A DNA stretch of 64,000 nucleotides from Planctomycetota bacterium. Its GTDB lineage: Bacteria > Planctomycetota > Phycisphaerae > UBA1845. A program made the translations under genes and the position numbers. The notes beneath the pieces were generated by a model. The model was not told the DNA's origin, made no database searches, and saw nothing but the letters and a program-made list of their open reading frames with translations. The DNA lies in the NCBI GenBank assembly GCA_016200265.1, contig JACQFE010000051.1, positions 1-64,000 on the forward strand, read 5' to 3'. Below are positions 8,608-58,243 of this stretch, one piece after another (positions within the stretch are counted from its first letter, which is position 1; every line of letters starts with the position of its first letter).

Positions 8608-10254
8608 GTGTCTTATCGAGTCCTCGCAAGAGCGTATCGCAGCCGCACATTCGACGAAGTCGTCGGACAGGAGAGCACCGCGACCACGTTGAAAAACGCG
8701 ATCACGTCCGGTCGCATCCACCATGGCTATTTGTTCACAGGCACGCGCGGCGTGGGCAAGACGTCGATGGCGCGAATTCTTGCCAAGGCCCTCAATTGTC
8801 TCGCTTTCGATGCTCCGACTCCAACTCCTTGCTGCAAATGTGAATCGTGCATTGCCATCGCCGAAGGACAGGACATCGATGTCGTCGAAATCGACGCGGC
8901 CAGCAACACAGGCGTTGACAACATACGCGAGCTTCGCAGCAACGCCAATCTCAGACCGGCCCGCTCGCGATTCAAGGTCTACATCATCGACGAAGTCCAC
9001 ATGCTGAGCACGGGGGCGTTCAACGCCCTGCTCAAAACGCTCGAAGAGCCGCCGCCGCACGTCAAGTTCATTCTTGCGACGACCGAAGCACAAAAAGTTC
9101 CGGCGACGATCCAGAGTCGCTGCCAGCGATTCGACTTCAAGTCCATCGACGTTGCGGCGTTGGCGGGCCACCTGGCACAGATCGTTGAGGCGGAAAAAGT
9201 TCGGGCGGATGAAACGGCCTTGCGGCGCATCGCGCGCCTGGCGAACGGCTCCATGCGCGACGCGCTGTCGTTGCTCGACAAACTTCTGTCGTACGACCCG
9301 AACGAACTCACCCTGCAGACGCTCGACACGCTCGTGCCTCCGGCGCATGACGAGCTGGCCATGACGATTGTGGGTCGAATCGCACAGTCCGATGCGGCTG
9401 GGGCGTTGGATTCGCTGGATGCCGCACTCCAGACGGGCCGCACGATCGACCGCTTCTGTGACCATCTGATCGAACATTTCCGCACCCTCATGCTCGTTCG
9501 TGTGGTCGGCAAGGACACCGATTTGATCGACGTGCCGGATTCGAGTCGCGGGGCGCTTGCGGAACAAGCTGCGGCGTTCGATGCGCCCACCTTCGTGTAC
9601 ATGATTTCGCTGCTCGAAGAGCTTCGCCGCAACGTGAAATACAGCGGTGCGGCCCGAGCCTTGGCCGATGCAGCCATCGTCCGCCTGGCCATGAGCGAAA
9701 AATTCACCGACCTCAAAACACTTCTCGAAGGCGTCACTTCCGGCGGAGAAATTACGGCAACATCTTCATCGCCAACGGACTCAAAAAAAAACGCCATAGC
9801 TAAGACCGTCGGAAACATTGAAGGTTTAACCTCCCCCAACCCCCTCCTTGGTAAGGAGGGTGGCACGTATGTGCCGCGAACTTCAGTTCGCGCGGACGAA
9901 ACACTTGTAAGTCGGGCTTCGTCCGCCGAAACATGTGCGAGAACGGATTCTCGCACCAGCGAAGTTTCGCCGACTCCAACGGATGCGAGATCGGAATCTC
10001 GCGCTAGCACACCCTCTCCCTCGCAGGGAGAGGGCAAGGGTGACGGTCGCAGCCCAGCAATCACGAGTTCGTCCCGAAGAGTTACGCCTTCAGAACAAGT
10101 CGCTCGCGATCCGCTGGTGCAACGAATCAAAGCCGCGGTCGATGGCACGGTCGTCGATGTACGCGCGGCTCGCCGAACGGAAGCTTCGGAAACACCCAGT
10201 GAGCCCCAGCTCGATTTGAATGTCGAACAAAAAGCGCAAACCGCATTGGAGTAA
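8608..10254 (+). CDS. dnaX: DNA polymerase III subunit tau/gamma
   Basis: This 548-residue clamp-loader ATPase starts at a GTG (MSYRVLARAYRSRTFDEVVG); no in-frame ATG fits better. Visible features are Walker A TGTRGVGKTSM at 44-54, a zinc-binding Cys set (C64, C75/76, C78, C81), Walker B IIDEVHML, and sensor 1/arginine-finger region ILATTEAQKVPATIQSRCQRF. The AAA+ and collar domains end near residue 370. An A9 run at codons 392-395 could give a short gamma-like product by slippage. The segment 408-476 is encoded by a train of palindromes rather than by ordinary tau linker sequence. The remaining C-terminus is short and lacks a recognisable tau domain V. It is followed by ybaB (3-base gap) and recR, the common dnaX-ybaB-recR order. 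Confidence 0.95.
   Translation: MSYRVLARAYRSRTFDEVVGQESTATTLKNAITSGRIHHGYLFTGTRGVGKTSMARILAKALNCLAFDAPTPTPCCKCESCIAIAEGQDIDVVEIDAASNTGVDNIRELRSNANLRPARSRFKVYIIDEVHMLSTGAFNALLKTLEEPPPHVKFILATTEAQKVPATIQSRCQRFDFKSIDVAALAGHLAQIVEAEKVRADETALRRIARLANGSMRDALSLLDKLLSYDPNELTLQTLDTLVPPAHDELAMTIVGRIAQSDAAGALDSLDAALQTGRTIDRFCDHLIEHFRTLMLVRVVGKDTDLIDVPDSSRGALAEQAAAFDAPTFVYMISLLEELRRNVKYSGAARALADAAIVRLAMSEKFTDLKTLLEGVTSGGEITATSSSPTDSKKNAIAKTVGNIEGLTSPNPLLGKEGGTYVPRTSVRADETLVSRASSAETCARTDSRTSEVSPTPTDARSESRASTPSPSQGEGKGDGRSPAITSSSRRVTPSEQVARDPLVQRIKAAVDGTVVDVRAARRTEASETPSEPQLDLNVEQKAQTALE
9783..9791 (+). promoter_or_regulatory. A9 slippery run in dnaX (possible gamma-product site)
   Basis: The frame reads TCA AAA AAA AAC GCC at codons 392-396. 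Gaining one A gives ...AAA CGC CAT AGC TAA, and losing one gives ...ACG CCA TAG. Both shifted frames therefore stop within 3-4 codons, giving a protein of about 396-398 residues that ends just after the clamp-loader core. Thermus dnaX uses an A9 run for transcriptional slippage to make gamma. Confidence 0.6.
9829..10034 (+). repeat. Train of seven palindromes inside dnaX
   Basis: Consecutive perfect hairpins lie in the coding frame: CCCTCCTT/AAGGAGGG (9842-9860), GGCAC/GTGCC (9862-9875), CGCGAAC/GTTCGCG (9875-9892), GGACGAA/TTCGTCC (9894-9924), GTGCGAGAA/TTCTCGCAC (9935-9956), GCGAGAT/ATCTCGC (9985-10002) and CCCTCTCCC/GGGAGAGGG (10012-10034). The first resembles the repeats at 30877-30910 and 58211-58243; the third recurs at 55965-55982. 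Confidence 0.8.
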
Positions 10255-30876: not shown

Positions 30877-30910
30877 AACCCCCCTTTTTCCCCCTTGGTA
30901 AGGGGGGAGG
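30877..30910. repeat. Dispersed palindromic repeat, CCCCCTTGGTAAGGGGG type
   Basis: AACCCCCC, TTTTT, CCCCCTTGGTAAGGGGGGAGG. The same arrangement (C-run, spacer, CCCCCTT-loop-AAGGGGG) occurs in dnaX (9829-9863) and before flhF (58211-58243). It may also act as a hairpin after the sudA remnant. Confidence 0.75.
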
Positions 30911-30928
30911 CTGCGGAAGTGCGGCTAT

Positions 30929-55812: not shown

Positions 55813-55964
55813 ATCAACGATCCACGATCACGGTTGCCAGCAAACAATCGAGCGCCGGCTGGAACCATGTCAATTGAACGAAATTGCCAAATTCCGATTT
55901 CCAAATCACCATTCAAGGAAATCAGACAACGACTTTGAAACAATCCGTACCGCCTTTGGTTCCT

Positions 55965-55982
55965 CGCGAACTGAAGTTCGCG
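55965..55982. repeat. Palindrome CGCGAAC-tgaa-GTTCGCG
   Basis: Its inverse complement is the palindrome at 9875-9892 in dnaX (CGCGAAC-ttca-GTTCGCG). Here it is intergenic, 23 bases past the fliA stop. Confidence 0.7.
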
Positions 55983-56004
55983 GCTTGCTTGGCCATCAAC
56001 CCGG

Positions 56005-58210: not shown

Positions 58211-58243
58211 TACCCCCTCAATCCCCCTTTACAAAGGGGGGAG
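58211..58243. repeat. Dispersed palindromic repeat, CCCCCTTTACAAAGGGGG type
   Basis: TACCCCCTCAAT followed by CCCCCTTTACAAAGGGGGGAG lies 3 bases after the flhF stop. It belongs to the same family as 9829-9863 and 30877-30910. Confidence 0.75.

Follow-up and report, generated by a model that had tools for sequence, protein, structure and literature searches.

Short REP-like palindromes of several families as probable in-frame insertions in the dnaX linker of an uncultured Phycisphaerae bacterium

How does a stretch of protein-coding sequence come to be built of one hairpin after another? The question is raised by the dnaX gene in the 64,000-nucleotide stretch of DNA analysed here (the window), which comes from a single metagenome-type genome of an uncultured Phycisphaerae bacterium (assembly 4.56 Mb, 80 contigs). 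This genome (G000) holds one full-length dnaX match and thus a single orthologue, which stands first in the gene order dnaX, ybaB/ebfC, recR. The linker of DnaX lies in the C-terminal third of the protein, between clamp-loader domain III (which ends near residue 378) and a conserved tail. AlphaFold predicts residues 379–491 to be disordered (pLDDT < 50) and places helices at residues 494–499 and 502–511.

The initial annotation had counted seven palindromes in this linker, and both its count and its coordinates proved right: the minimum-energy fold of 9826–10050 has exactly seven hairpins (9842–9860, 9862–9875, 9876–9891, 9892–9926, 9935–9956, 9984–10002, and 10012–10034), and the block that they form occupies 9829–10046 (Table 1). 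The energy of this fold is −107.2 kcal/mol, compared with −77.9 ± 4.9 kcal/mol for 200 dinucleotide shuffles (z = −6.0), none of which did as well. Five perfect stems of at least 7 bp are present in the block, whereas codon shuffles of the same peptide (n = 2000) produced at most two. A chance origin of the hairpins is excluded. The 3′ end of an HSP70 gene matches 17 bases of the dnaX flank immediately ahead of the family A element; this match was also considered, and was set aside because it is read in another frame and encodes unrelated residues.

Table 1. Positions, in the window, of dnaX, its landmarks, the linker hairpins, and copies of the same families elsewhere
Feature	Position	Strand	Basis or remark
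dnaX	8608–10254	+	548 aa; Pfam DNA_pol3_delta2, DNAX_ATPase_lid, DNA_pol3_gamma3
A9 run, probable gamma/tau slippage site	9783–9791	+	slipped frames stop within 5–7 codons
Family A palindromic element, encodes TSPNPLLGKEGG	9829–9864	+	nhmmer E 2.9e-9
Small palindrome GGCACGTATGTGCC	9862–9875		MFE fold; unique in 774 kb sample
Family B palindromic element, GAGCCGCGAACTTCAGTTCGCGCGG type	9872–9896	+	nhmmer E 4.6e-8
Long-loop hairpin GCGGACGAA/TTCGTCCGC	9892–9926		inverted repeat and MFE; unique in 774 kb sample
Family C palindromic element GTGCGAGAANGGATTCTCGCACCAGC	9935–9960	+	nhmmer E 1.9e-7
Diverged family C element	9984–10008	+	stem 9985–9991/9996–10002; compensating A-T swap keeps stem
Family D palindromic element CCCTCTCCCT...AGGGAGAGGG	10009–10046	+	nhmmer E 5.3e-9; 10 bp perfect stem
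Conserved C-terminal tail DPLVQRIKAAVDGTVVDVR, residues 501–519	10108–10164	+	in frame again after insert; V504 invariant, D501 nearly so (alignment)
Intergenic family A copy	30878–30911	+	nhmmer; between called genes
Family B copy outside called genes	55961–55985	−	nhmmer; not among in-CDS copies
Weak family A copy	58213–58243	+	nhmmer E 3.9e-4

When the organism's own assembly was searched with the linker DNA, 34 matches were returned, in separate blocks, and families were sorted by profile searches and by de novo clustering of hairpins in about 774 kb of the genome. Five of the seven hairpins could be assigned to four multicopy families (A to D), whose elements measure about 25–38 nt. Family A (CCCCCTTGGTAAGGGGG type), which frequently occurs as inverted pairs, has about 100 pattern matches genome-wide; the patterns of families B and C gave 48 and 49 hits, respectively, which correspond to about 25–35 places each because a palindrome can match on both strands; and family D (CCCTCTCCCTNNNAGGGAGAGGG type) has fewer copies than the other three. 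The family B pattern was found in several relatives as well. These four rank with the genome's largest hairpin families, alongside a CCCAGCCC family and a parS-like site. About 52 parS-like sites (TGTTTCACGTGAAACA, 36 of them exact) are spread over about 30 contigs, many paired 31–32 bp apart (e.g., at C37:52803–53020 and C52:27786–27833), a number that seems far above what is usual for a chromosome.

The hairpins are thus not unique to dnaX, and the sites near 30877, 55965, and 58211 with which they had been compared are indeed copies of families A, B, and, weakly, A. The initial annotation had also held that the stretch is made almost entirely of hairpin types found between genes. Five of the seven belong to multicopy families; for the hairpins at 9862–9875 and 9892–9926, a search for dedicated families found no relatives in 774 kb of the genome. 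A variant resembling the diverged family C hairpin (GTGTGAGATGGGAATCTCGCAC) is present elsewhere in the genome. All four families are in frame in dnaX, so several different families do share one disordered linker, as had been proposed. The dnaX copies of A, B, and C are only one or two bases off their family consensus, and with so small a divergence their arrival looks recent.

For comparison we used 50 genomes of the same family, none of which belongs to the same genus. Twenty-six DnaX proteins were aligned, those of the other genomes being 42–69% identical to that of the window; the tail is conserved and the linker cannot be aligned; a linker shared with relatives by conserved protein sequence, the outcome that would have spoken against insertion, was not found. 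From the A-run to the tail there are 109 residues in the window dnaX, as against 44–104 in the other family members with both landmarks and 44 in the closest relative (L012), from which it would follow that the palindromes lengthened the linker by roughly 65 residues. Several such hairpins occur in the window dnaX only, and one stem of at least 8 bp was seen in just 2 of 37 other dnaX loci. Because the linker is unalignable, the tail conserved, and the hairpins nearly absent in relatives, we infer that a variable linker was already there when the palindromes arrived in this lineage. The idea that palindromes had been captured in frame as the linker must be amended accordingly: the capture in frame stands, but the linker is older than the palindromes, which only made it longer.

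Upstream of the block, the dnaX gene carries the sole A or T run of at least nine in the 774 kb sampled. A run of nine or ten A occupies the same place in 24 of 30 dnaX genes of the family (compared across loci L012–L040), and in 16 of these 24 both shifted frames stop within 15 codons. In Thermus dnaX, tau is read from a single frame, stops lie close by in the frames shifted from an A9 run, and transcriptional slippage yields gamma (PMC5009743, PMC3711429). The window dnaX has the same layout, with an A run of at least nine after domain III and stops in the shifted frames, so the run is probably a gamma/tau slippage site of the Thermus type, here in a GC-rich planctomycete family and judged from sequence alone. 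Because the insert lies downstream of this conserved site, it would be carried by the tau form only. Three loci (L026, L033, and L038) are arranged otherwise: the zero frame stops soon after the A-run and a shifted frame is open, so tau might need a slip, and they resemble the two-ORF type of dnaX (PMC3711429).

These observations lead us to favor, with a probability of roughly 0.8, the reading that short REP-like palindromes of four or more families inserted separately, in this lineage only, into the part of the dnaX linker that tau alone would have, piling up there and being captured in frame in the manner of Rickettsia palindromic elements (RPEs). It rests on the multicopy families, the absence of the hairpins in relatives, the open reading frame, and the conserved tail that resumes after the insert. 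Each element would have been copied in by mobile-element machinery, which for the GAGCCGC-headed group, family B included, may have been a RAYT transposase. Insertions would have survived where the total inserted length was divisible by three and the frame used held no stop, and the encoded peptides, rich in Pro, Gly, Ser, Arg, and Glu, would be flexible enough to be tolerated. The linker itself may be tolerant because it is disordered and downstream of the A9 site, at which RNA polymerase slippage would give a gamma that ends before the insert, leaving tau to carry it. Most likely the insert itself serves no function.

The position of strongly structured hairpins just downstream of the A9 run suggests a different reading, namely that they act as functional RNA in the dnaX message and either stimulate frameshifting or tune the gamma/tau ratio. 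Ribosomal frameshift stimulators have a reach far shorter than about 50 nt, and it is at about this distance past the run that the first hairpin begins; moreover, relatives that share the A9–A10 site have no such hairpins. Given the distance and the absence in relatives, we reject a frameshift-stimulator role. Elements of the same families also occur in many unrelated genes. The precedent is a stem-loop in Escherichia coli dnaX that does stimulate frameshifting, but slippage in Thermus is transcriptional (PMC5009743), and we consider a functional RNA very unlikely. Slightly less probable still is that selection favored the peptide for making the tau linker longer, with the palindromes present only incidentally. 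Linker length does vary widely in the family and the insert is predicted to be disordered, as such a reading would have it; however, the hairpins never arose when the codons of the same peptide were shuffled, and the DNA matches intergenic repeats that have another coding frame or none.

Insertion of separate elements is further borne out by copies in other genes, as counted with a simple purpose-written gene caller. In a first sample, 20 of 29 copies of family A, 4 of 12 of B, 3 of 19 of C, and 3 of 7 of D were inside strongly coding genes. Because this sample had been picked partly around hits, a second set was chosen by the family A pattern alone; of these 38 context-blind copies, 17 were internal to strong genes and in frame (LeuRS, AspRS, TilS, and MnmA among them) and 19 were intergenic. 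Intergenic family A copies lay between convergent (11), co-directional (11), or, less often, divergent (4) genes, which is the bias of REPs. The hosts confirmed by Pfam are AlaRS, TsaD, HSP70, LeuRS (with two copies), AspRS, another class I synthetase, TilS, MnmA, a Clp ATPase, an arginase-family enzyme, and several transferases. Alignment to solved structures showed AlaRS and TsaD to be interrupted by insert blocks, with 79 extra residues in TsaD between two halves that both match solved TsaD. In-frame insertion of this kind is therefore not special to dnaX and has affected dozens of other genes, essential ones included.

The frame is kept in essential genes present in single copy, which speaks for translation of the inserts. 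The converse, that they are bypassed or spliced out and missing from the mature protein, would have a parallel in yeast mitochondria, where ribosomes skip mobile hairpins, and would suit those inserts inside conserved folded domains of essential enzymes, yet it is the least likely reading of all, because every insert examined in essential single-copy hosts is stop-free and frame-keeping, neither of which bypass would need, and a Pfam search of the host proteins found no splicing (intein) domain. tRNA synthetases and tRNA-modifying enzymes account for 7 of about 30 hosts and seem over-represented; taking their share of coding length to be 2–3%, which is our own estimate, the binomial chance comes to about 2e-6 to 2e-5. 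With a small and partly biased sample, we treat this enrichment as a lead.

The sole alaS found in G000 (L133:7959–11963, contig C54) also contains a RAYT (Pfam Y1_Tnp) in frame, flanked by palindromes of the GAGCCGCGNCCGTRAGGRAGCGG family that are translated as PSRDRKEA- and PLPYGRGS-type peptides. Across the order, 13 genomes have a RAYT, together with palindromes of its own, in frame within a synthetase (loci L133, L166, L167, L168, L170, L188, L190–L195, and L214). In nine of them, which represent three families, the AlaRS site is the same; in G040, G071 (with two RAYT copies in one frame), and G009 the RAYT lies elsewhere in AlaRS, and in G080 the host is a class I synthetase, probably ValRS. 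The HVH and Tyr-xxxx-Gln motifs are intact in every embedded RAYT examined. Free-standing copies also exist in the order, and in the RAYT tree one of these falls within the group formed by the embedded copies (group support 90/91, just under the starring threshold). That the sites are separate and the hosts are two different genes speaks for RAYTs having inserted in frame more than once.

RAYTs with GAGCCGC-headed palindromes on their flanks, related to family B, occur here; no transposase was seen for family A, C, or D. A second RAYT (L163:8000–10825, contig C75) has many GAGCCGC-headed palindromes around it, some inside the neighboring RCC1/S74 gene, and its 580-aa frame runs into what follows. 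Yet another (L144:1361–2140, at G000:C16:21098) has its own distinct pair of palindromes (CCCCCAYCCTCGCGAAGCGAGGGTGGGGG type), and the genome would thus host several unrelated RAYT/REP systems. One broader proposal, which we hold to be possible rather than probable, is that the palindromes and RAYTs of this order are specialized to in-frame life in essential, mostly translation-related genes, with the transposase expressed as an internal domain of AlaRS or another synthetase and the palindromes as flexible peptides, and with the host protecting the element against loss and frameshifts; on this view the dnaX linker would be one by-product.

Until now, most known cases of in-frame capture of short palindromes have come from Rickettsia and a few genomes rich in REPs, and here it occurs at high density in an unrelated phylum. 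Three features appear to be new: several families are stacked in one linker, a large share of copies lies inside genes, and RAYTs sit inside synthetases, for the last of which we found no description in the open literature searched (most subscription papers lay outside the search). Together the inserts form a natural collection of places where essential proteins tolerate insertion, and a RAYT inside alaS suggests a way for such elements to secure both expression and retention of their transposase. The A9–A10 run of dnaX, probably a site of programmed slippage and conserved within a planctomycete family, is directly testable.

Among known systems, the inserts differ from inteins in that they have no splicing domain. 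The RAYTs have the familiar form of a Y1 transposase with flanking palindromes; what sets them apart in the 13 genomes here is that they are internal, in-frame synthetase domains. As multicopy palindromes of 20–40 bp, often in inverted pairs, families A to D are REPs in the broad sense, but REPs are predominantly extragenic, which family A (17 of 38 in genes) is not. GTAG/CGTC REPs are likewise short and in inverted pairs, with intergenic copies mainly convergent or co-directional; intragenic clusters of them coding for 43–82 residues have been reported, as have hits in DNA-repair genes and tRNA synthetases (PMC3733652). However, the GTAG/CGTC tag was present, on either strand and within 10 nt of the element, in only a small minority of 109 copies, a rarity that rules out membership; nearly half of family A copies are intragenic here, and dnaX goes unmentioned in that report (PMC3733652). 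RPEs, which were the comparison first proposed, likewise comprise several palindromic repeat families in frame in ordinary protein genes (PMC10969869, PMC3733652, PMC3767692). At about 25–38 nt, the present elements are shorter than RPEs (about 100–150 bp; PMC3767692), their host belongs to the Phycisphaerae, and several families share one linker; the likeness claimed is one of insertion mode, palindromic repeats captured in frame within ordinary genes, and to that extent the comparison holds.
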